A stretch of DNA of 26,599 nucleotides from a virus. A model generated the notes under the pieces. It made no database searches, was not told where the DNA came from, and saw only the letters and a program-made list of their open reading frames with translations. The position numbers and the translations under genes were made by a program. Below, piece after piece: positions 9,314 through 26,599 of this stretch; position 1 is the stretch's first letter; each line of letters starts with the position of its first letter. The stretch is taken from positions 1 through 26,599 of the IMG/VR virus record IMGVR_UViG_3300017767_000099, one strand, 5' to 3'.

Positions 9314-9317
<4 letters not shown>
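8589..9317 (-). CDS. Unknown virion-associated protein
   Basis: This 242-aa protein starts MKKSLPDRFKELAGIKPLRE. The 'RFKELAGI..L.E' opening is a recurrent N-terminus among structural proteins of marine T4-like phages. It then shows a coiled-coil-like acidic stretch (EDLQDRLEQVYREMEQEAE, about residues 39-57), a beta-rich centre (GEITIYPDLGSLQYKS) and a helical C-terminus ending KKSLLEIYKKY. There are no cysteines and no enzyme motifs. The start overlaps the stop of the 1423-aa gene as ATGA. A GC-rich hairpin lies about 46 bases inside the gene (9249-9271). A packaged or scaffold-linked protein is an inference from the N-terminus and context. Confidence 0.6.
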
Positions 9318-13585
<4,268 letters not shown>

Positions 13586-13595
13586 TTCTTTTTTT

Positions 13596-16500
13596 TTAGA
13601 AATCGGAAACCATCCCTCCTAGAATAAATTTTCCTGTTATTTTATACGGTTGTGTTGCTATGTTTTTGTCTCTAATTACTTCTCCTTCATGGTTTTCAAC
13701 TGATCCCATAGGAGAATCTAATACTTTAAGTATTTCATCACCTAATTTTTCAGTTGCAAGATAAGTTGTAAACCCTTCAATTGCTTTTTGTTTATCATTT
13801 TCATCATCAAATAGATCTTCTATATTTTCTTTTTGAAGAATAGCCAAATAAACCTGCTTTGAAACAGCTCCAACTTTTTTCTTAGTACCGTTAACGTTCA
13901 TAAATATAAAGTCTTTTTCAGGGATGTTATTTAATTCATTTAATAGATCACTTAATGACTTATTTACTGTGTTTTCCCCCGCTTCAATGGTATATTGTTT
14001 AGAAAGTGCTGCATTAAAATTTGGTTTTTTCTTCATTTCTGTTGGGACTGATCCATACACTTCAAAATCGTTTTTCTTTGCTGTTGGTTTTAAATTGTTT
14101 AGTAAAGATTCTAAAGCTGACTTATCATAAGACACTTCAGAAGACACTCTTTTAGTTAACATTTTTCTTTTTCCTTGTACTTCTTTAGTTTCTATTTTAT
14201 TTAAACCATGTATTGCTATAAAATTTGAACCATAATCTTGTACGTTAGTTTTTCCACTAACATATTCCATATTAAATAATATGTTTGGATCATCATATGC
14301 TCCTAATTTTTTAAGGTCAGCTTCTAAAGAAGGTAATGCTTCATTAAACATGTCTAATACTTCTCCTCCTACTTTAACCATTCCATGACCATCTCCAAAT
14401 CTACTTAATAAATCATCTTTTGTAATACCTTTTACGTCTAAAGATTTTTTAGAACCTCTGTCCATTACAAATTGTTTTTTACCATCTAAATCTACTAAAC
14501 GAATAGAACTATTTACTCCATCTATTTTTACAGAACCAGGAGTTTTATTTAGGGATTCTGCTGTTTTTTCAAATATATTTAATAAATCTTTACCTGAATT
14601 AACATTTGATAAATTAAAAGGGTGTGCCATATGTCCTGCTGCTCCTCCTTCTGTTAATAATGTTTCATTGATAATTTCTTTCCACCATGCTTTAGTAAAT
14701 GTACCTTCTTTTTTCATTCTTTGTGTTTTTTTCTTTGATGCTTCTTTACGTTTTTTAATGTATTCAAAAGCTGATTTTAAACGTTTTTTCTTTTGTGGGT
14801 CTTTTGTTCTACCTAAAGCAGCTCTTACTCTTTGATGTATTAAATTTATAATTTGTGATTGACGAGCATGAGATTTACTTTTAAATGATTTTTTTGTTAA
14901 AGTATCTACTATGTCTTGTCTAGTACTAAATTTAACTTTAACTGTGTCTTTAGGATTTTCGTCTGTATATAATCTTCTACCTGATCCTTTAGGTTTTTTA
15001 CCTGTTCCTTTTTTAGGATCAACTTCATTTATAGGGTTAAACATTACGTCTGGTAATTCATTATAATTAATCCCTATATAATCACCAACATTTACATTGT
15101 TATTTTTACAATACCCCCCAGGTAATTCTAATACTGTGTCTGCTTTTCCAGTGTATTTAGGACACCAACCACCTTTACAAGGGGAAGCACTGTGGTCTAT
15201 TTTATTTATTTTATTATTATCTATAAAAACTATATCTAGAGGAATTTTACAATTTTGCATATGAAATTGTCTTTTAGCTATGTCTAAATAAGGAAAAATC
15301 ATTCCTCCTTCTAATTCATTTCTACCCATCATACCTTGTACTTGTAATTCAGGTGTATCCATTACTTCTAAAGGTATAAATTTATCATGGATTACAGCTG
15401 TGCTTTCATTTAAACTCATCATAGTATCATATGATTTTGTTTTTAAATCATTTAATTGTAATATAAAATCTGTTCTTCTTAAAACTTTAAATGCTAAATT
15501 TTCAACACTATATTCTCCACCTTTTTCAAGGCCTGATGATCTCATATTTCTAAGTCTTTCTTTAATTCTATCTACAGAATTTATAACTTCTTGATATTGT
15601 TTATTATTAAATAATATTTTAATTTGGGGTAATTGAGACCAATAACCTTCTGCTTTAGATTTTATATCTTCTTTATCGAGAATTATTTTATTTTTAACAG
15701 GTTCATTAATCCATTTATCATTTAATACTGAGTATAAACCAGATGCTGTATGTTTTTCATCTTTATCTTCAACGTATACCTCAACAGGATAACCAAACAT
15801 ATCTATTTCATGTCTTTCATTCCATATTGATTTTTTAGCTAAAAAATAATCTCTAGCAAAATTTTTATTTTTTACAATTTGGGAATAATCTAATACTAAA
15901 TGTAAATCAACATCTGAAAATTTAGACCAATTATAATTAGCTAAACTACCTGTTAGTTTTATATCTTTTAATATTGTGTTTTTAGGTAATTCTAATGATT
16001 CAAAAAAATCTTGTGCTATTAACAATAATTTTTTTCTAATTTCGGGTTTTAATTTATTATTTTCCCACACATCAGTAACTAATGTATCTTGAATATTAAA
16101 ACTATTTATAACATCATCTGAAAATGAAATTTCATATAATTTTCTTGTAAGTGTACCTTTTAAATAATCAGGTACTTTTATATATTGATCTCCTTGTTTT
16201 TTAAGATCTTTTTTTAAACGTTTAAGATTTTTGCTGTGTTTAGCTTTTTCTTGATTATTCATAGTACCCATCATTTCTCTAATTGATGCTGGGTCTTCTA
16301 CTTTTAAAAATATGTCTGGATATTTATCTTTTAACGCAGATACTGATGTTCTGTTTTCTTCAGAATCATCTATAAAATAAATTGTTTGATATCCTTTTTT
16401 TATATGATTCTCAATCCAATTAGCTTTATCTTGACCTGTTACTTTACCATCTACTTGTAGGCCTAAAGGTACAACATAAGCATCTAAGCCTAATTCTTCC

Positions 16501-17513
16501 CTCATATATCTTGTTACGGGGTGTCCTATAGAACGCGCTGTAAGGATTGTTGTTTTTACTTCTGTTTTACTTAATGAATTTTTTAATTTACTTACTACCC
16601 CTGTGTTTATAATAGCATCCCTTATTTGTTTTTCAAAGTTTTTAAAATCATATGTAATGTCTAAATTACCTAATCTTGCTTCTAATTCTTTACTTTTTGT
16701 TGGAAATTCTTCTGATGATATGTCTAATTCTTGATAAAAATCAGGATCAGTGGGGCTAGTTATAACTGTTTTTATGTTGGTTTTTACTTTAGCTATAGTA
16801 TCGTCAAAATCATAAACATGTAGTATTTTTCCTTTTTCATTTTGAACCTCTTCTCCAAAATTACGTTTACGGTAAAGAGCGGATCCTATGCCCCCATTTC
16901 TGTATTTGTAATTGTTAGATGTTAGTTTTTTGGGGTTTGGGTCATTTGTTTTTGCAAAATCACGGTAATGATCATCAGGATGATATAAATCTTCTTTTAA
17001 ATTTGTAACTATATTCCAAGCTGCTTTTTCGTCTGTATTTAAAGGTAAACCATCAATAAAAAATTCTTTATTATCATTTTTAATATAACTACGCATTAAA
17101 GTGCCTGATATTTTTTTGTTAGTTCTTGAAGTTTGATCTGGTATATTAATAAATTCTATATTGATTTTTTTATTAAATTTTTTAGCGTAGGTAGGAATTC
17201 TTACAAAACGTGGATCTTCATTGTCTTTTTCTCCTTTTATAAAAAAAAGAGTATCTCCATCCTTAGCTTCTAATTCTACAAAATCATACACATCTCTTAC
17301 TGGAGAAATATTTGCTTTTCTAATTTCTATATTTTCTCCTTGTGTGTATAATTCCCATAATTTAACAGACATATCTTGGGTTATACTTTCTCTTTCTTTA
17401 GGGCCAACAAATACAATAACTTTCTCTACTTGTTGAGAAGCTATTTTAGCTGCTTTGTAATGTCCTATGTGTGGGGGTTTGTATCCCCCAGGATATAGTG
17501 CTATATTTGCCAT
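13596..17513 (-). CDS. Multidomain enzyme fusion: HxGH NTase, HAD, Pol-beta NTase, DUF192, ligase-like
   Basis: This 1305-aa protein carries at least five recognisable modules. Residues 1-145 are an HxGH nucleotidyltransferase (YPGGYKPPHIGHYKAA at 7-22; ISGTLMR at 135-141), of the NMNAT/cytidylyltransferase superfamily. Residues 230-405 are a HAD phosphatase (DFDDTI 235-240, TILTAR 322-327, FIDDSEEN 380-387). Residues 505-600 are a Pol-beta-type nucleotidyltransferase (GSLANYNWSKFSDVDLHLV 522-540, metal-binding Asp534 and Asp536). Residues 713-820 match DUF192 (IPLDIVFID, VNVGDYIGI). Residues 834-935 are a basic DUF5872-like segment (KPKGSGRRLYTDENP). Residues 955-1305 are a DUF6267-like domain with ligase-type motifs KIDG (996-999), NMEYV (1081-1085) and EGEVI (1276-1280). 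Counterparts of these modules occur in marine T4-like phages. Substrates are unknown; polynucleotide end repair or NAD-linked chemistry are the main options. Confidence 0.82.
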   Translation of the reverse strand: MANIALYPGGYKPPHIGHYKAAKIASQQVEKVIVFVGPKERESITQDMSVKLWELYTQGENIEIRKANISPVRDVYDFVELEAKDGDTLFFIKGEKDNEDPRFVRIPTYAKKFNKKINIEFINIPDQTSRTNKKISGTLMRSYIKNDNKEFFIDGLPLNTDEKAAWNIVTNLKEDLYHPDDHYRDFAKTNDPNPKKLTSNNYKYRNGGIGSALYRKRNFGEEVQNEKGKILHVYDFDDTIAKVKTNIKTVITSPTDPDFYQELDISSEEFPTKSKELEARLGNLDITYDFKNFEKQIRDAIINTGVVSKLKNSLSKTEVKTTILTARSIGHPVTRYMREELGLDAYVVPLGLQVDGKVTGQDKANWIENHIKKGYQTIYFIDDSEENRTSVSALKDKYPDIFLKVEDPASIREMMGTMNNQEKAKHSKNLKRLKKDLKKQGDQYIKVPDYLKGTLTRKLYEISFSDDVINSFNIQDTLVTDVWENNKLKPEIRKKLLLIAQDFFESLELPKNTILKDIKLTGSLANYNWSKFSDVDLHLVLDYSQIVKNKNFARDYFLAKKSIWNERHEIDMFGYPVEVYVEDKDEKHTASGLYSVLNDKWINEPVKNKIILDKEDIKSKAEGYWSQLPQIKILFNNKQYQEVINSVDRIKERLRNMRSSGLEKGGEYSVENLAFKVLRRTDFILQLNDLKTKSYDTMMSLNESTAVIHDKFIPLEVMDTPELQVQGMMGRNELEGGMIFPYLDIAKRQFHMQNCKIPLDIVFIDNNKINKIDHSASPCKGGWCPKYTGKADTVLELPGGYCKNNNVNVGDYIGINYNELPDVMFNPINEVDPKKGTGKKPKGSGRRLYTDENPKDTVKVKFSTRQDIVDTLTKKSFKSKSHARQSQIINLIHQRVRAALGRTKDPQKKKRLKSAFEYIKKRKEASKKKTQRMKKEGTFTKAWWKEIINETLLTEGGAAGHMAHPFNLSNVNSGKDLLNIFEKTAESLNKTPGSVKIDGVNSSIRLVDLDGKKQFVMDRGSKKSLDVKGITKDDLLSRFGDGHGMVKVGGEVLDMFNEALPSLEADLKKLGAYDDPNILFNMEYVSGKTNVQDYGSNFIAIHGLNKIETKEVQGKRKMLTKRVSSEVSYDKSALESLLNNLKPTAKKNDFEVYGSVPTEMKKKPNFNAALSKQYTIEAGENTVNKSLSDLLNELNNIPEKDFIFMNVNGTKKKVGAVSKQVYLAILQKENIEDLFDDENDKQKAIEGFTTYLATEKLGDEILKVLDSPMGSVENHEGEVIRDKNIATQPYKITGKFILGGMVSDF

Positions 17514-17545: not shown

Positions 17546-18469
17546 TTACGACAAGGCTAACCTCTTTTTCATTAAAGTGGAGGTAGTTAATTCTATTGCA
17601 TTATGTAGTAATTTTGTAAATTTTTTAAAACCTAATTCAGAAGGATCTTTATCCCCCATTTCTATAAGATAAACACGTTTTCCATAACTCATAAAGGTTT
17701 TAGCATGATTAAAAGCGTCTTTTAAAGCATCTTCATCTAAAGCAAGATATATTTTTTTAACATTACTTTTAATAATTTTTTTCATTAAAGATGTAGATAT
17801 TTTTTTACCAAATAAAGGAACTACATTACGTTTAATTGCCATAGCATCAAACGCACCTTCACATAAAATTATGGGTAAATCCCAATTTATATACATTTCA
17901 AACCCAATTATGTCCTTAGTACTGGACGCAAGTTTATGTTTAATATATGCGTTTTTATCAAATGATCTGCCAACATAATAATTTAGAAAACCATCTTTAT
18001 CATAACTAGGAACTACCACCATATTTCTTAAAGGGCCATTTTCACAATAATGTAAATTATATTTAACTACATCTTGTTTTGTTATTCCTCTTTGATCTAA
18101 ATAATGTAAAGCATGTTTAGATAAAATTGCAGAACTTGAAATTATAGGTATAACTTCTTTAGGTAATTGTAAAGTATTGGTGTCAACCTTTTGTTTTGTT
18201 TGTTTTTTAAAATTATATTGTTGGTCAATTTCTTTTAAAATATTAAATGTAGATCCAGGTGCATTGGATTTTTTTAATAATTGATAAGCTCTATGTCCTT
18301 TATAACCACAAACCCAACATTGAAATTTTTGAGATAATAAATTAAATGTAAGTTTTTTCTTATGATGATTACAACTAGGACAAGTAAATACAGCTTCATC
18401 ACCTCCTCTAGCTGATTTACTTCTACCTAATACTGATTCTAATAATTGTTTTAATAAATCTTCTTTCAT
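17546..18469 (-). CDS. DNA primase, DnaG/T4 gp61-like
   Basis: This 307-aa protein has an N-terminal zinc ribbon C30-x2-C33 ... C51-x2-C54 (FTCPSC, CWVCGYKG) of the type that recognises the primer template. The TOPRIM catalytic domain has the motif ILCEGAFDAMA (Glu204) and LALDEDA (Asp245, Asp247) and a later GDKDPSELG. All catalytic acids are present. It is shorter than bacterial DnaG because there is no helicase-binding C-terminal domain, as in T4 gp61 (342 aa). Its role would be making RNA primers for lagging-strand synthesis with a phage helicase encoded elsewhere. The start overlaps the GIY-YIG-like gene stop as ATGA. A replication gene among virion genes is unusual relative to T4. Confidence 0.93.
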   Translation of the reverse strand: MKEDLLKQLLESVLGRSKSARGGDEAVFTCPSCNHHKKKLTFNLLSQKFQCWVCGYKGHRAYQLLKKSNAPGSTFNILKEIDQQYNFKKQTKQKVDTNTLQLPKEVIPIISSSAILSKHALHYLDQRGITKQDVVKYNLHYCENGPLRNMVVVPSYDKDGFLNYYVGRSFDKNAYIKHKLASSTKDIIGFEMYINWDLPIILCEGAFDAMAIKRNVVPLFGKKISTSLMKKIIKSNVKKIYLALDEDALKDAFNHAKTFMSYGKRVYLIEMGDKDPSELGFKKFTKLLHNAIELTTSTLMKKRLALS

Positions 18470-18894
18470 CTAAAATCCCTGTCATAAAATTTACCTAATA
18501 TATTGTCATTAAGGTATTTTTTATCTTCTAAAACTTCTAATACAAATTGATATTTACATTCTAAATATGTAAGTTCTTTTTTGTTAAAAGCCACTTGTAG
18601 AATTTTTCTTTCTAAGTCTTCTTTATTTGCATCTTTTATAAAACTATGAGAACCATAGTAAGTTTTCCAATCGCTTTCTTTAAGTACTCTTTTATAGACA
18701 GGAGGTCTACCTTTACCTTCCCAAAGTGCTTTTTCTTTTTTGCCTAATTTTTTCTTTAAATTATATATTAAAGATTTTTTACCAATGTATTTTTTTCCAG
18801 TTGGGGTATGAGTTGTTTGATAAATAAAACCAAATGCTCCTTTAGGAAGGTCAACTATTTCATTAATAAGTTTGTCTTGATAATACCACTGCAT
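18466..18894 (-). CDS. GIY-YIG-like putative endonuclease
   Basis: This 142-aa protein has an N-terminal GIY-YIG-type core: GFIYQTTH at residues 22-29 in place of 'GIY', and KKYIGKK at 34-40 as the 'YIG' strand. The stretch ESDWKTYYGS, then a helical region and ELTYLECKYQF, matches a family found as free-standing genes in many T4-like phages and often listed as a homing or Seg-like endonuclease. It lacks a visible DNA-binding domain, so it may be a resident nuclease rather than a mobile one. It overlaps the primase start by four bases and starts three bases after the 144-aa gene stop, which argues for a fixed operon position. Activity is inferred from motif only. Confidence 0.7.
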   Translation of the reverse strand: MQWYYQDKLINEIVDLPKGAFGFIYQTTHTPTGKKYIGKKSLIYNLKKKLGKKEKALWEGKGRPPVYKRVLKESDWKTYYGSHSFIKDANKEDLERKILQVAFNKKELTYLECKYQFVLEVLEDKKYLNDNILGKFYDRDFR

Positions 18895-20157: not shown

Positions 20158-22089
20158 TTATGTATCCCACCTTAAAACAAAAGTGGTGTCGGTTTCATCA
20201 GACATTCTGATTGGTTGTCCTAATTTACCTACTACTAAACAATCTCCTTTTTCATCATAAAGTCCTATTGTTGTTATAAAAGTTGAAAAATTAGAACCTG
20301 TAGTGAAATCAGCTAATGTGTGTTTTTTACTTGATTTTACTTTTCTTGCTGATAGGTTATAAGTACTATTAAATTCATCTTCACTTACTGTACATTGATA
20401 TTCATGTTCATAAATTAAATGAGTTCCTTGAAATTGAATTTTATTTAAACTATATTCATTTCCTGGATTTTGTAGTGTATTTTGATATAAAGGATGAGTT
20501 ATAACAGCAAAACCTGCTTGATAAAAACAATTTCCTATGTAAGGTGAACCATTTAGGCTTGAAGATATATTAAGTATTGTATTTGGTGTATGGGCTTTTG
20601 AATAAATGTTTATATTACTAATATTACCATTAAAGAATTTTCCTTTATCTATTAGTGGACCATAATTATCTACAACAAAAGTTGAACCTATTACTGATAC
20701 ACCTATACCACCATCTGTAAAACCGTCTACAATAAATGATGATCCTATAACGGCTGTACCTAGACTAAACTCAAAATCTGTGTTTTTATGTTCACCTTTA
20801 GATCCTATGTATAAATTAGATGTGTTTCTTGTTTGTTCCTTTATTGTAAAATCTTCTTCTTTTAATTTAGCGCCATTTTCCCAAATCTGCATTTTTGATC
20901 CTGACGATTGACATAGTATGTGAGTATTTATATCAACAATGTTATAATTGCCTGTTTCGCCCAAAGAGGCGCTTGCAGCATATTTTTGATTTCCATCTGA
21001 TCTTTCAAAATGAAGAGAATTACTTATATGATATATTTCAAAAGGAAATTGAGGTTCGGAAGATTCTGCAGAACTAGATAAACTATTAGTTACTCTTTTT
21101 GTTCCACTTTTAGCTATAATGTATCTTTTTTCAAGGTCTAATTCTCCACTTACTATAAATTGAGTATTAACTCCTCCAACATTTTGGCCTATTGCTGCTG
21201 TTCCTATAACAGGTGCATCTAAGGATATAGGTCTTATGTAAAAAGATACTGAGAAGTTTTCATCTTTATCAAAATTATATCTTTCATGGTGGGAAGATGA
21301 AATGTATGAACCTGTTCTACTATTAAATTTTATTTCAGATGATGAGCTTATAGACTGTGCAAATTGAACATTATTATAATATATTTTATTTATAAAATAA
21401 CTATCGTCTTCGTTTTCAGGATAAATTTCTCTAGGTTTACCCATTATACTTGTGTATGTTACAGGGGCATTAGGACTATTTTTTCCTCTTCTCCAACCCC
21501 CACCTATTATATCTGTGTGAAATCCTGTTTTTTTATTAACATATTTATAATGAGCATAATCACTAAATACATCTAAATCATATCTTTTAAAACCATCTAC
21601 TGGTTCTAATTTAAATACATTTTGTTGAATATCATTAGGATAATTGTCTAAATTAGTTCCACTAATTATTAAATTTCCTTTTTTATCATCTATAATTTGA
21701 TAACTACTTGCAGACAAATAAAAAGATCCTGGTTTTATTTCAAAACCATATAATCCAGAAGGTATAGATAATATGTTTGCTTTTTGATAAAGAGTTCTAG
21801 GTTGTTCTAAATAATTAATGGGACCCATTTTATCACCTACTGTTTTTTTAAAATTTCTATAAAAAAGGTGATCTATTTGGCTATATTTAATAAAATTTAT
21901 AACGTCCGATCCATAACCGTCAGTATGAGAAGTACCATACATAGATACTGATTCTGAAGTCCAACTAGCATTAAACCATGTTAATGAATTTGATGCTGCT
22001 GAAGCGGAAGTGAAATTATATTGTTTATGGGCATTAAAGGGGATTAGTGCCTTGTCTTGTGCCGAAAATTTTTTAAAGACTGTACCCAT
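20158..22089 (-). CDS. Tail-fibre-like virion protein with interrupted LamG domain
   Basis: In this 643-aa protein, residues about 270-520 look like a LamG/concanavalin-type sugar-binding sandwich: FSVSFYIRPISL, YIIAKSGTKR, SGSKMQIWENGAKL, NLYIGSKG and FFNGNISNINIYSKA match the strand order of LamG_3 domains. The domain is interrupted by Ile-Gly-rich peptides at about 293-317 (VIGTAAIG) and 441-475 (LGTAVIGSSFIVD, then IGVSVIGSTFVVD). The C-terminal 40 residues (FITTIGLYDEKGDCLVVGKL) are homologous to the end of the 365-aa neighbour (FITTVGMYNDANDLLAVAKL), a module frequent in marine myovirus virion proteins. Likely role: host recognition or baseplate-linked fibre. It precedes the 118-bp promoter-like gap. 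Confidence 0.72.
   Translation of the reverse strand: MGTVFKKFSAQDKALIPFNAHKQYNFTSASAASNSLTWFNASWTSESVSMYGTSHTDGYGSDVINFIKYSQIDHLFYRNFKKTVGDKMGPINYLEQPRTLYQKANILSIPSGLYGFEIKPGSFYLSASSYQIIDDKKGNLIISGTNLDNYPNDIQQNVFKLEPVDGFKRYDLDVFSDYAHYKYVNKKTGFHTDIIGGGWRRGKNSPNAPVTYTSIMGKPREIYPENEDDSYFINKIYYNNVQFAQSISSSSEIKFNSRTGSYISSSHHERYNFDKDENFSVSFYIRPISLDAPVIGTAAIGQNVGGVNTQFIVSGELDLEKRYIIAKSGTKRVTNSLSSSAESSEPQFPFEIYHISNSLHFERSDGNQKYAASASLGETGNYNIVDINTHILCQSSGSKMQIWENGAKLKEEDFTIKEQTRNTSNLYIGSKGEHKNTDFEFSLGTAVIGSSFIVDGFTDGGIGVSVIGSTFVVDNYGPLIDKGKFFNGNISNINIYSKAHTPNTILNISSSLNGSPYIGNCFYQAGFAVITHPLYQNTLQNPGNEYSLNKIQFQGTHLIYEHEYQCTVSEDEFNSTYNLSARKVKSSKKHTLADFTTGSNFSTFITTIGLYDEKGDCLVVGKLGQPIRMSDETDTTFVLRWDT
20669..20768 (-). 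repeat. Two direct copies of an Ile-Gly-rich in-frame repeat (57-bp period)
   Basis: Segments beginning at 20669 and 20726 on the plus strand align over about 42 bases at roughly 70 percent identity by eye (shared TCTACAA, CCTAT, ACCTA blocks). The offset is 57 bases, exactly 19 codons. They encode LGTAVIGSSFIVD and IGVSVIGSTFVVD. Related segments occur at about 21171-21210, 25711-25750 and 26181-26225. Confidence 0.75.
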
Positions 22090-22100
22090 TTTTTAGGATA

Positions 22101-23198
22101 TTAAAAGTCTAATTTTACTCGTATAAGTGCTTCTTTAGTAAAGTCTTTTGCAATTGGTTGGCTTAATTTTGCAACTGCTAATAAGTCATTTGCATCATTA
22201 TACATTCCTACTGTTGTTATAAATACTTTTGGGTTCATTCTCATTGTAGAGAATAAAATTGTTCCCTTACTACTTCCACTAGTAAATGACGGATTATTAG
22301 TATAGTTAAATTCTGAGTTTTTAGCTCTAACAAAATAAAATTGAGAATTTACATCTTCTTCTGTGTCTATAATAAAGTGATTAGAAGAAGAAATTAATTG
22401 ATACATTCCAATGTGATTAAGGTCATAATTTGTACTTAACCCTGTGTTGGTTTGTGGTAAATCTTGTTGTAATGTTGCACCAGTACCTACTTTAGCTGCA
22501 AACATATCACCATTTAATATGATAAGACCTGCATGTGGATAAAAATGTCCATAAGATGAACTTCCCCCTTTTTGATTTATTGTTGAACCTGATATAATAC
22601 CATTTGAACCTGATACAATGTTATAATAACCACCTAAATTAGTGCCTACATAGTTAGGATTGTTTGCAGTAGCCCCCCTACTAACACTATCATCTGTAAG
22701 TTTTAATTTACTATCAGTAGGAGTATCTATATTAGCTCCTGAAATAAATAATGATAAACTTCCCGCAGATAATCTTTGTTTGTAATTTGCTCTATTTACA
22801 TTAATTACATAAATACTGTCTGGTGTATGAGTACCAAACGTAAAATTTTGGGTTTCATCTTGAAAAACTAATTGTCTGTATTGGTTGTAATTTACTCTAG
22901 CAGCACTAAATCCAAATGATCCTGTGTCGTTAGTAAAATCAGGAGAACCTGATCCGTGTCTGTGTCCATATGCTAAAGAATATTGTACTGCTGATGCGTT
23001 AGAAGTACTAACGGCATTGTAAGCATCTATATAATATTGTATTGATCCTGTTGTTGATATAACTGATGCTGATAATACTGAAGATGTAAAATTTGTATCT
23101 AAATTATTGTCATTAGTAGACCATGTAGATGTAACTAATGGAGATGGATTCTCTAATATTACTATATCATTTGCTTCGTCAAATCGTGTTAAACTCAT
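22101..23198 (-). CDS. Virion structural protein, paralogue of the 643-aa fibre protein
   Basis: This 365-aa protein has a predicted beta-rich, Ser/Asn/Thr-rich composition and no enzyme motifs. The opening MSLTRFDEANDIVILENPSP and middle segments such as GFSAARVNYNQYRQLVFQDE and HAGLIILNGDMFAAKVG are of the type seen in marine T4-like virion proteins. The C-terminus NPKVFITTVGMYNDANDLLA then VAKLSQPI is shared with the 643-aa protein encoded just downstream, so the two genes have a common terminal module, perhaps for attachment to the tail. It lies 11 bases from each neighbour. A baseplate or fibre-network role is inferred from family resemblance and position. Confidence 0.68.
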   Translation of the reverse strand: MSLTRFDEANDIVILENPSPLVTSTWSTNDNNLDTNFTSSVLSASVISTTGSIQYYIDAYNAVSTSNASAVQYSLAYGHRHGSGSPDFTNDTGSFGFSAARVNYNQYRQLVFQDETQNFTFGTHTPDSIYVINVNRANYKQRLSAGSLSLFISGANIDTPTDSKLKLTDDSVSRGATANNPNYVGTNLGGYYNIVSGSNGIISGSTINQKGGSSSYGHFYPHAGLIILNGDMFAAKVGTGATLQQDLPQTNTGLSTNYDLNHIGMYQLISSSNHFIIDTEEDVNSQFYFVRAKNSEFNYTNNPSFTSGSSKGTILFSTMRMNPKVFITTVGMYNDANDLLAVAKLSQPIAKDFTKEALIRVKLDF

Positions 23199-23209
23199 TT
23201 TTATTTATT

Positions 23210-23932
23210 TTAGGTTGTTGTAGAATTTACAGTAAATGGAACTGTTATTCTTGCTCCTGTATTTATTCCTTCAATTATTAAACTTGTTGTTAATGATGGT
23301 AATTCAGTACTAAATAAGGCATTATTAGTTGTAGCTTGGATTGTTAATGTTCTTCCTACTACTGTTTCTGCTGTAGCTACATTAGAAATAGTGTTTATAG
23401 TTGTTACATTTGCAGTTTGGTTATTAGTAGTGTCGTTAGAACCATAAGGTGATGCTTTTCTTCTTTGAGATCTAGTTGATGCTCCTGTTGCTTGTATATA
23501 TTCTCTTAATCTATTATCTATTATAGTAAATCTATATCCCTGTGATTCAGTGCCTGCTTGATTATTACCGTTTATGTTAAATGTTCTGGGTTTTATAGCT
23601 TGAACTGCTCCTTGAGCTAATTCTATACCTGTTTGGTTTCCTACCTGAATGTAAGGTATTGCTGAAGTTCCTCGAGCTAAAGTAATCAATTTTGATTGCA
23701 TCATATTAGCTCCATCAGGAATAGCTTCAATTAAAGGCATATTTTCAATTGCTTCTGCTGAGTATTGTGTTCCATTAGGGTGATTTTCATTAAATAAAGT
23801 ATAATCTATTTCACTATCACCTAAGGCAAATTGTGTTATCTCAAATGAACCATCATTTTTGGCGAGAAGTTCTCTTCCTTTTTTAGTTAAAATTGCGTCT
23901 ACTGTAATACTGGTTTTGTCTAAATATCCCAT
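23210..23932 (-). CDS. Conserved virion protein of marine T4-like phages
   Basis: This 240-aa protein begins MGYLDKTSITVDAILTKKGR and continues ELLAKNDGSFEITQFALGDS then IDYTLFNENHPNGTQYSAEA. This 'GYLD...ITVDAILTKkGRelLa' opening with 'F.lgD.eIDYtL.n..HP.G..y....IEN.P..EA' is a strong recurrent signature of a structural protein family in marine myoviruses. The C-terminal half is Thr/Asn-rich and beta-like (TLTIQATTNNALFSTELPSL). No cysteine or catalytic residues were seen. The leader contains the 17-base A/T element also found before the 1305-aa gene. The exact position in the virion is not known. Confidence 0.75.
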   Translation of the reverse strand: MGYLDKTSITVDAILTKKGRELLAKNDGSFEITQFALGDSEIDYTLFNENHPNGTQYSAEAIENMPLIEAIPDGANMMQSKLITLARGTSAIPYIQVGNQTGIELAQGAVQAIKPRTFNINGNNQAGTESQGYRFTIIDNRLREYIQATGASTRSQRRKASPYGSNDTTNNQTANVTTINTISNVATAETVVGRTLTIQATTNNALFSTELPSLTTSLIIEGINTGARITVPFTVNSTTT

Positions 23933-23942
23933 TGTTTTTGTT

Positions 23943-23959
23943 GTTTATTATAAATATAA
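23943..23959 (-). promoter_or_regulatory. Candidate promoter or leader element, shared with 17525-17541
   Basis: On the minus strand this reads TTATATTTATAATAAAC, ending 10 bases before the ATG of the 240-aa virion gene. It differs at one base from the element before the 1305-aa gene and has nearly the same spacing to the start. It lies in the 43-bp gap after the 686-aa gene. Confidence 0.4.
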
Positions 23960-23975
23960 TGTTTTTTAAAAAATA

Positions 23976-26036
23976 TTAAGTCCCTTCATAAAGTACATTT
24001 GTTATACCACCTGGCGCGTCATCTATTAATCCTGCCCTTTGTAAATATAAATCTAAATTTCTTCTTACTCTAGGATGTGTAAATTGAGGAATTATTACTA
24101 CTCCTTTTGTTCCTATACCATCAAATAATTCTTCGTCTTTATCTATATTTGCTATAATAACATGATCTTTATCTAAAAATGACAATTGCCATTCTAAAGA
24201 ACTTGTTCCTCTATCATTTATATAACTTCCATAATAATTATCAACTGTCATAGAAGCAGATAAAGAGTTTTTATAATCAGGATTACTACTAGTTATATCA
24301 CCATCAAAACCTATTGCCCCTAATGCTCCCCCCTGTAAAAATACTCGCATTTCTTGAGTTCTATTTAAATTTACTCCTGGTTGTGTGAAAAGATTTACAT
24401 TTGATTGACCTAAAGCAGCACAACCTGCATAATCATTACCCGTAGCTACTAAAGCTTGTTTTTGTGCAAACGTTAAAAAACTACCTGTATATTCTAAGTA
24501 AGCATTATCTATTCTATCATCAAAAGTGTCTAACACAGGCATAAATCTACCATCATTAGATCCTTTAAAAATTATTTCATGTGTTTGGGGTAAAAAACCA
24601 TGACAATGATCGCCAACATCTAATGCTGTTTGGTTTTGATCTACTTCAAAAGTTCCTATACTTCTTTCATCGTTTGCACTTTGGTTGTATTTGTAATTTC
24701 CTGGTTCTCCACTCCCACTTATACTTACACTAAAATCTTTTACACCTTCTAAAAAAGTAACGTGTAATTCTGTTTTTTCTTCTATAGGTACATCATCATT
24801 AGAATTATTTTGTTGTAAAAAATCTAAACAATTTACACCTATAAATCTACTTGCTTGTCCTAAGTCTGAATTTTTAAGACGTTCAGCATATGTTGTTCCT
24901 ACCCATCTATTTTCAATATTTCCAAAAGAACCACTGTAAAATTGTCTTGTATATTTGTTAGTGTGTATAGAAGATGAAGAAAAAGAAGGACCTATATGGT
25001 GTTGTTGAAGTATGTCTCCTCCTCCAGCACCAGTACTAGGATTACCTACAATATTACCCGCATGGTAATTTATGTTAGCATATCTTAATCTAGCACCTGA
25101 TATAGGGGCTTGAGCTACTGCGTTATTACCTGTATTTACTCCATTAATATAAAGATTTTCTCTTTGTTCTCCGTCTCTGTAAAAATAAATACCATTATTT
25201 GTAGTTAAATGATCTTCTACAGTATTTTCGGGAAGAGTTCCCCCTCCTGGTTCCCCTCCATGCCTATATTCAAAAGATTTTAATAACCATCCTTTATTCA
25301 TTTTACAAAAGTAATTTTGTTTTAATTTTGATCCTACAGATTCGTCTAATATTTTAATTTTAAAACTTCTTCCTGTAGGTAAATCATTAGTTATAAACCT
25401 ATGGAATTCTTGAAAGTCTTCTTGTTCTCTACTTATTACATCTACTGTGTCTGTTTCTATATTTACTATTAGTATTTTTTGAATACCAATGTATGAATGG
25501 TTTTGTAAGTCAGCAAATTCATTTTCTTCTTTCCCCCCTATAATTGTATTAGCTATAAAAATAGCTGTTGTTTGGTTTTGGACTGCAGGGTTTGAACCAT
25601 ATGTTTCATCCCCTTTGTATATTTCAAAATTTTGACATAAAGTTCCTTCAGAATTTTCTACTGTAAAAGGGGCACCGTTTTTAGCAAATTGATGTTCAAC
25701 CACCCCACTAGAACCTACTATTTGGGAAAACCCTATACCACTGCCTATAGCGGCGGGGGTATATACATTTACTGCTTTTCCTGTTGTTTTACATCCTTTA
25801 TATCTAGTGTTAGCCCACCATACTGTGTCTATTATAGAATCATCAAATTCTGCTGTAAAGAGACGTTTTTCAAAACTTTTTGTTATAATTCTAGGAAAAA
25901 GTTCATGAGAAATTTGAAAAAAGGATCCTGATACTCCTCCTATATTCATATATCCTATACCAGGTGCTGCTATAGTACCTGGTAAATAATTAAATATACA
26001 TGATCCTGTGGGTTTATTTGCATTTATTATCGCCAT
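23976..26036 (-). CDS. Large virion protein, unknown family
   Basis: This 686-aa protein has beta-rich, Gly/Asn/Ser-rich composition, with no enzyme motif or membrane segment. Its N-terminus MAIINANKPTGSCIFNYLPG is followed by two Ile-Gly-rich patches: GIGYMNIGGVSGSF (about 26-39) and AAIGSGIGFSQIVGSS (about 95-110). The second resembles the repeated peptide in the 643-aa fibre protein. The middle has GRSFKIKILDE and a helix-turn segment ending in WLLKSFEYRHGG; the C-terminus LDKDHVIIANIDKDEELFDG then VRRNLDLYLQRAGLI is more globular. It lies two bases from the upstream partial gene. A tail or fibre-network protein is likely from its place among structural genes. Confidence 0.62.
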   Translation of the reverse strand: MAIINANKPTGSCIFNYLPGTIAAPGIGYMNIGGVSGSFFQISHELFPRIITKSFEKRLFTAEFDDSIIDTVWWANTRYKGCKTTGKAVNVYTPAAIGSGIGFSQIVGSSGVVEHQFAKNGAPFTVENSEGTLCQNFEIYKGDETYGSNPAVQNQTTAIFIANTIIGGKEENEFADLQNHSYIGIQKILIVNIETDTVDVISREQEDFQEFHRFITNDLPTGRSFKIKILDESVGSKLKQNYFCKMNKGWLLKSFEYRHGGEPGGGTLPENTVEDHLTTNNGIYFYRDGEQRENLYINGVNTGNNAVAQAPISGARLRYANINYHAGNIVGNPSTGAGGGDILQQHHIGPSFSSSSIHTNKYTRQFYSGSFGNIENRWVGTTYAERLKNSDLGQASRFIGVNCLDFLQQNNSNDDVPIEEKTELHVTFLEGVKDFSVSISGSGEPGNYKYNQSANDERSIGTFEVDQNQTALDVGDHCHGFLPQTHEIIFKGSNDGRFMPVLDTFDDRIDNAYLEYTGSFLTFAQKQALVATGNDYAGCAALGQSNVNLFTQPGVNLNRTQEMRVFLQGGALGAIGFDGDITSSNPDYKNSLSASMTVDNYYGSYINDRGTSSLEWQLSFLDKDHVIIANIDKDEELFDGIGTKGVVIIPQFTHPRVRRNLDLYLQRAGLIDDAPGGITNVLYEGT

Positions 26037-26038
26037 AA

Positions 26039-26599
26039 CTATATTGTATTGTATTCTGTATATCTATAATACCTACGGGAAGGTCTTCCTTTAGTAGCCA
26101 TTCCTAATAAAATAGATGATTCATGTGCTTTATAATTGGCAGGTTTATTAGATGGGTGAATTTGAGCTGTCCACTCACCAATGGCAAATGTTGTTCCTAT
26201 TTCTGCGAACCCTATACCTACATTTGTATAACTTTGGGGACCATAAGGTTTAATAGGAGCTTGACAATCTTGGTTATTTTCAGCATTTGGGTCTTTATTT
26301 TGTTGACTTAAATGAATGTCAAATATTTCTATTGTAGTGTTGGTTCCTTGTTCTAATCTTTCTCCTGTTTTACTAGAAGTTATATTTGATAAATTATTAT
26401 TACTAACTACATAAGTACCCGGTTCATATTGGCCCTGGGGGGTTAAAGGATCTGCTGTGTCTGCTATATCGTTTATTTTATTGTCTTCATAATCTGTTGA
26501 TATGTTAACATCAAAATGTTGGTGAAGACCTTCTGTCATTGTTTGACCATCACTTCTTACTGGAATTTCTCTTGGGAATTTATTTCTTTCTAAGAAATG
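26039..26599 (-). CDS. Virion-associated protein, 5' end beyond the window
   Basis: The frame is open from its stop at 26039 to the right edge (187 codons including the stop). An internal ATG at 26539 would give 166 aa, but the 20 upstream codons read as convincing protein (NKFPREIPVRSDGQ), so the true start is probably outside the window. The product contains MTEGLHQHFDVNIST, a Glu/Asp/Asn-rich middle, and SYTNVGIGFAEIGTTFAIG near the end, a copy of the Ile-Gly-rich peptide seen in the 643-aa fibre protein. It ends GRPSRRYYRYTEYNTI. I do not recognise the family. Position and composition suggest a structural protein. Confidence 0.62.
   Translation of the reverse strand, partial: HFLERNKFPREIPVRSDGQTMTEGLHQHFDVNISTDYEDNKINDIADTADPLTPQGQYEPGTYVVSNNNLSNITSSKTGERLEQGTNTTIEIFDIHLSQQNKDPNAENNQDCQAPIKPYGPQSYTNVGIGFAEIGTTFAIGEWTAQIHPSNKPANYKAHESSILLGMATKGRPSRRYYRYTEYNTI

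Follow-up and report, generated by a model that had tools for sequence, protein, structure and literature searches.

Why does one short peptide, rich in isoleucine and glycine, recur inside three virion genes of a single virus record? The question is raised by a linear IMG/VR record of a marine bacteriophage, IMGVR_UViG_3300017767_000099, the whole of which (26,599 bases) was analysed and is referred to here as the window. The minus-strand genes of its right-hand part code for proteins that carry no PHROG label, and an original prediction made from the letters alone had reported Ile-Gly-rich peptides inserted in frame in three of these genes. All of these peptides were found where they had been placed, on the minus strand. 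They are complete or degenerate copies of one unit of 16 residues, with consensus GIGxxxIGxxFxVGNY and a length of 48 bp: a tandem pair in a LamG-like protein, one copy in a protein of about 1300 residues, and degenerate copies at two more sites. The host genes and the units are as follows.

20158..22089, minus strand: unit host gene, LamG/concanavalin-like virion protein of 643 residues
20662..20709, minus strand: unit W2, GIGVSVIGSTFVVDNY, second of the tandem pair at LamG site 2 (profile and DNA match)
20719..20766, minus strand: unit W1, SLGTAVIGSSFIVDGF, first of the tandem pair at LamG site 2 (profile and DNA match)
21145..21210, minus strand: degenerate copy at LamG site 1 with an extra stretch inside, VIGTAAIG-QNVGGVNTQ-FIVSG (best DNA register 21163-21210)
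23976..26036, minus strand: unit host gene, virion protein of 686 residues
25692..25739, minus strand: degenerate copy GIGFSQIVGSSG (peptide 25704-25739) near the N-terminus of the 686-residue protein (alignment and DNA match)
25911..25961, minus strand: GIGYMNIGGVSGSFFQI, perhaps another degenerate relative of the unit (a weak match, scoring 3.6 bits with the profile of the C-terminal tag described below)
26039..26599, minus strand: unit host gene, virion protein of about 1300 residues, C-terminal 186 residues only, as the window end cuts the gene
26171..26218, minus strand: unit W3, GIGFAEIGTTFAIGEW, near the C-terminus of the protein of about 1300 residues (profile and DNA match)

PHROG and Pfam searches returned almost no labels for the virion genes, and a search of the phage collection found no close DNA relatives of the window. 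Distant relatives of the LamG and 1300-residue proteins are present in Flavobacterium phage immuto and Microcystis phage Mel-JY01. In immuto they sit between a baseplate wedge gene and the tail fibre and tail spike genes, and because of this gene position the two window proteins are taken to be virion proteins.

A profile built without any window copy recovered the three window units at domain E-values of 2.6e-4, 4.1e-4 and 0.012, the next best match being at 0.86. When only DNA was compared, the best non-self match of each of the five 48-bp units among 26,552 window positions was another unit, and the four best matches of the unit at 26171 were the four other units; for the two weak copies a DNA comparison had served to fix the 48-bp frames, but both places had already been listed in the original prediction. 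The profile matches and these DNA-only nearest neighbours rule out plain chance as the source of the likeness. Two details of the original prediction needed correction. The claimed agreement of 26 of 36 bases between 20675-20710 and 26186-26221 appears after a 2-base shift, only 10 of 36 agreeing as written, and the frame said to be common to all copies is the same relative to each gene but not in absolute terms, with 20662, 26171 and 25692 lying in three different frames.

Proteins related to the LamG protein, from 75 loci designated by L numbers, were used to build a 17-position profile of the unit; in open reading frames (ORFs) of at least 60 residues, its matches of at least 9 bits were well separated from all others. 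The near-duplicates L001, L002, L008, L025 and L057 were left out of the copy set and of the codon comparison. Copies of the unit were found at some seven loop sites, spread over four families of virion genes: LamG sites 1 and 2, a C-terminal site and a '918' site of the 1300-residue protein, the 686-residue family, in which related phages carry full copies at the site that is degenerate in the window, and a 411-residue protein. Up to three tandem copies occupy the C-terminal site of the 1300-residue protein in L047, L009 and L010, and a third LamG loop holds a looser, M-containing form in L011, L059, L060, L068, L069 and others. Scanning thus added copies to those originally listed, and a profile trained on one gene found them in others: the LamG copies alone retrieved 10 copies in other genes at domain E-values below 0.01, with a best score of 5.1 bits in the reversed-sequence control. 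At the 686-residue family site of L009 and the 918 site of L132, extra residues split the unit into GIGxxxIG and FxVG halves, which may be separable strands.

In these searches the unit is restricted to virion genes. Matches were present in 7 of 13 whole records searched, all within ORFs of the unit-carrying families. A six-frame scan of 76 loci (665,105 bases, frames of at least 12 residues) gave 39 matches of at least 9 bits, 37 in long virion ORFs and the remaining 2, both at 9.3 bits, in 35-residue frames; the reversed control gave 5 such matches, the best at 12.5 bits. In these loci no copies outside virion genes or out of frame were seen above the control level. A tblastn search of phages with the consensus peptide gave no match, the 21-residue query probably being too short, and a literature search, mostly of freely readable papers, found no account of the unit motif and none of peptide elements inserted in frame in phage genes. 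The unit as a module, and its placement in loops, are well supported.

The unit segments are insertions. In the alignments some relatives carry the unit and others lack it at both LamG sites, 1 and 2, at the C-terminal and 918 sites of the 1300-residue protein and at the 686-residue site, and the 411-residue protein is filled in the L047 phage and empty in a 71%-identical relative. The fewest gains or losses on the trees are 3 for LamG site 1 and 4 for site 2 (40 rows), and 3 for the 918 site and 2 for the C-terminal site of the 1300-residue protein (25 rows). These trees were obtained by quick searches with no bootstraps from columns filled in 80% of rows. The LamG tree omits L024, L038 and L039, and the 1300-residue tree omits L016, L023, L027, L029, L050, L075 and the window, in both cases as fragments or too distant; the latter also omits the 1424-residue protein of L010 and the filled copies of dropped rows. 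In a structural model of the window LamG protein the inserts are unstructured and lie between core strands, residues 292-303, 305-317 and 435-481 having a predicted local distance difference test (pLDDT) score below 50, in a model that is otherwise uneven with a mean pLDDT of 65.9. The original observation of in-frame inserts that interrupt the LamG fold is therefore confirmed, on stronger grounds than the letters of the window could offer: the sites vary between filled and empty among LamG homologues, and the segments are neither ordinary conserved strands of each fold nor isolated stretches of random-level similarity.

The unit is conserved as DNA and as peptide, unequally, and mainly as peptide. 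Likeness within genomes was tested on 30 copies for codon predictions, the edge profile and the synonymous test of all same-genome copies, and on 33 (L007, L018 and L028 added) for the amino-acid and different-gene tests. Copies from the same genome were alike at 8.43 of 16 residues, compared with 7.54 after genome labels were shuffled within sites (2 of 5000 shuffles), and amino-acid likeness was retained in pairs from different genes (11 of 2000). An excess at the synonymous level was obtained at the same frequencies, 2 of 5000 for same-genome copies and 11 of 2000 for different-gene pairs only. Likeness within a genome is thus more than chance, firm in amino acids and weaker in synonymous bases. 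The edges of the unit are sharp, since same-genome nucleotide identity per codon is 0.46-1.0 over the 16 codons and 0.25-0.38 outside, and similarity falls to background one codon beyond the unit. In the clearest pair, LamG site 2 of L009 and its 918 copy, 41 of 48 bases are equal and codon usage predicts 33.7. Position 8 is G in most copies, including all six of L047, which adjoins L009 on the LamG tree, and is E in both listed L006 copies, all five L010 copies and three of five L009 copies. This concerted change could come either from copying or from a shared binding partner, which the data do not separate. Duplication of the unit by copying within genomes is moderately supported. As a separate observation, codons for the same residue at position 2 (30 copies) coincide in 0.84 of pairs, where 0.51 would be expected, and are mostly ATA; position 7 lacks this excess, and that at position 2 is an unexplained DNA-level bias.

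In Bacteroidota phages, LysM-like proteins end in a similar peptide, GIGxMxIGxxFxVx-stop, here called the C-terminal tag. Scanning more widely with the pattern GIGxMxIGxxFx[VIL] gave at least 120 stretches, and the reversed pattern gave 3. Among the matches listed, together with five genome loci, 80 of 113 end exactly one residue past the V. Of the listed matches, 85 tagged ORFs are distinct in their last 60 residues; 60 of these belong to one LysM-like family, mostly of about 100 residues, and the remaining ones fall into 17 small clusters, some perhaps not real genes. A stricter form of the tag is present in five bacterial contigs, titled Flavobacterium (twice), Flectobacillus, Croceivirga and Massilia; Flavobacterium, Flectobacillus and Croceivirga are Bacteroidota genera. 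Among cultured phages, the Flavobacterium phages lotta8-1 (GIGEMIILQNFIIT) and fF4 (GIGFMVIENDFTVR) have the tag or a close form, the tag end of FPSV-S1 is degenerate, and Peternella_1 and BS-TP1 lack it. The tagged LysM proteins tested matched no PHROG or Pfam family. The LysM family does match baseplate gp16 of phage A-1(L) (8kea, E 0.0012), over the LysM part only, and a model of a LysM protein from a Bacteroidota phage shows a confidently predicted LysM fold followed by the tag as an unfolded tail. The C-terminal tail of A-1(L) gp16 is described, in a passage of the structural paper, as inserting into the hub barrel or joining a beta-sheet of the tube initiator (PMC10966104), and an excerpt of the Milano paper treats the LysM protein as a universally conserved wedge protein (PMC10811340).

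The profile of the LysM tag retrieved in-group units and unit-like stretches at up to 11.4 bits, compared with 3.6 bits in the reversed control. Because the tag profile finds units, weakly, above reversed controls, sequence likeness suggests with moderate confidence that unit and tag are one peptide family. The window units are internal and not at the C-terminus, and the full window copies lack the M of the tag. Long tail proteins of L141, L187, L161 and others, some with C-terminal lysozyme or VanY domains, contain an internal conserved, tag-like GIGGMxIGxxF stretch; this is perhaps the hub barrel that the tag could mimic.

The explanation we favour, to which we assign about an even chance, is that the unit is a portable docking peptide, which is copied in phase from place to place within a genome, enters loops of virion proteins and is retained in them by selection. 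The 16-codon module would be duplicated inside phage genomes by DNA copying during phage replication, always in coding phase, and copies would land in indel-tolerant surface loops of baseplate-proximal virion proteins, where selection on the peptide would keep them in place. The module would be a docking strand or hairpin, foreign to its carrier fold, that pairs with another virion subunit. Such a docking function is suggested by analogy with the A-1(L) tail, which like the unit is a short peptide of a virion protein, lying outside a LysM fold of the kind also seen in T4 gp53. The LysM tail of Bacteroidota phages and the unit have the pattern GIGxxxIGxxFxV in common; the LysM tail is a protein end, whereas the unit sits inside other virion proteins as a loop insert and is present several times. 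All copies within a genome would have a common partner, which would explain their joint change, and copying, not coevolution alone, probably underlies the likeness within genomes. A broader and more tentative proposal is that GIGx(M/S/A)xIGxxFxV marks one docking family of Bacteroidota phages and marine relatives, used both as a C-terminal tail and as a loop insert, in which gene-to-gene copying and concerted evolution edit the wiring of baseplate and appendages through a 48-bp module. As part of that proposal, the unit could conceivably be a linear-motif transposition system inside virions.

Several observations weigh against the favoured explanation. Identity of same-residue codons is near background in most columns (at position 3, for example, 0.41 against 0.41), with positions 2, 9 and 14 among the exceptions, and because codon choice is near background, most copies must be old or their DNA link faint. 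The synonymous signal in non-tandem pairs weakens when L009 (84 of 2000) or L047 (183 of 2000) is removed. When filled sites are compared with empty ones, the limits of the insert are not clean, since loop residues adjoining the unit differ too, and no target duplication was seen at the insert sites in these alignments. No PDB chain matched the unit profile. The matches of the tag profile to in-group units are individually weak (domain E-values of at least 0.01), and the link to the tag is partly circular, as the inserts supplied the scan patterns and thereby the fixed letters of the tag, which are not independent evidence; the exact C-terminal place of the tag, the reversed-pattern control and the hosts are independent of the scan pattern.

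Of the alternatives, the one that survives best, though we consider it unlikely, is that the units are exposed, fast-recombining host-recognition peptides on loops of the lectin-like and tail-fibre region, exchanged to alter binding to the host surface. The lectin-like fold of the LamG protein, the place of the immuto genes next to those for the tail fibre and spike, and the differences in site occupancy among relatives are all consistent with it. Recognition loops, however, usually diversify, and here the core residues G, I, G, I, F and V are nearly constant and variation is confined to a few positions that change jointly across sites. There is a smaller chance that the units are beta-hairpin loops of the ordinary sort, in which case a widespread structural motif would have had independent origins or been passed down with each fold, with no gene-to-gene copying. 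The GIGGMxIGxxF pattern inside lysozyme-bearing tail proteins, the pattern in other beta-rich ORFs and the mostly background codons would fit such loops, but cross-gene profile matches far above reversed controls and the DNA-only nearest neighbours would not, nor would the empty alleles and the lack of structure of the inserts in the LamG model.

We hold it slightly less probable still that the units are selfish in-frame mobile DNA, of the kind of Rickettsia palindromic elements (RPEs) or miniature inverted-repeat transposable elements (MITEs), tolerated in loops with a peptide that has no function. The dispersed in-frame copies, the tandems, the filled and empty sites and the DNA likeness within genomes agree with it, and the original prediction had drawn the comparison with RPEs. 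That comparison holds in that both are short dispersed elements lying in frame inside unrelated genes that stay open, a trait the unit shows in four virion gene families. It fails on palindromy, length and location, RPEs lying outside genes as well. RPEs are described, in passages of two papers, as palindromic and about 100-150 bp long (PMC10969869, PMC3767692); the unit has 48 bp and was seen in no genes other than those of virion proteins, and its conservation is at the peptide level, the codons drifting while the peptide stays. The palindrome scores of the five window units are 5-8, with shuffled means of 6.2-7.8, and no consistent RNA fold was found among the unit copies. With neither palindromy nor a consistent RNA fold, the unit is not an RPE, and the same two tests led to the rejection of a MITE. 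Nor were copies found elsewhere or out of frame above control in the 76 loci, as selfish DNA would lead one to expect. Skipping of the inserts in translation or their removal by splicing, as a bypass element or mini-intein of a length near known bypass gaps, is highly improbable and was ruled out by frames without stops and the lack of a consistent RNA fold, as well as by residue-by-residue conservation of the peptide.

Two further systems invite comparison. Like PARCEL (palindromic amphipathic repeat coding elements), the unit is a short, profile-defined peptide-coding repeat with suggested shuffling within genomes. PARCEL is reported, in an excerpt of its description, to have 25 residues, tandem tracts and dyad symmetry and to be linked to membrane-targeted proteins of unicellular microbes (PMC2996958), whereas the unit has 16 residues, occurs mostly in single copies and lacks dyad symmetry. 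Gene conversion by T4-type homing endonucleases could copy DNA within or between phage genomes, but what homing transfers is whole genes or flanks and not modules of 48 bp. A gene for a SegE-like GIY-YIG endonuclease (window 18466-18894, minus strand; PF19835, E 2.5e-22) lies downstream of the LamG gene, three genes away; nothing seen connects it with the units, and its position is regarded for now as coincidence. The name that PHROG 447 gives to this family, 'NAD synthetase', seems mistaken. Elsewhere in the window, positions 9314-13585 (minus strand) encode a protein of 1423 residues in which Cys-rich repeats of the form CNYNxxA..DDGSC are numerous; it also contains a long stretch of poly-Gly and, towards its C-terminus, a Hint-like domain whose Vint/Hint matches are below Pfam cut-offs. 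Positions 13596-17513 (minus strand) encode a 1305-residue fusion, adenylyltransferase-like at the N-terminus and with a match to phrog_36119 in its second part.

In-frame dispersed peptide elements are already known from cellular genomes, where, according to excerpts of that literature, the role of the added peptides is largely unexplored. The unit is a new variant of such elements and may be a portable docking motif. It is tiny and lies in virion proteins, and because it has sharp edges, this virion location and a plausible partner site from a solved baseplate, its function is directly testable. For annotation, the C-terminal tag provides a means of recognizing LysM baseplate proteins in Bacteroidota phages. 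If docking proves true, copying of the unit would give phages a simple route to rewire their tail appendages without exchange of whole domains.

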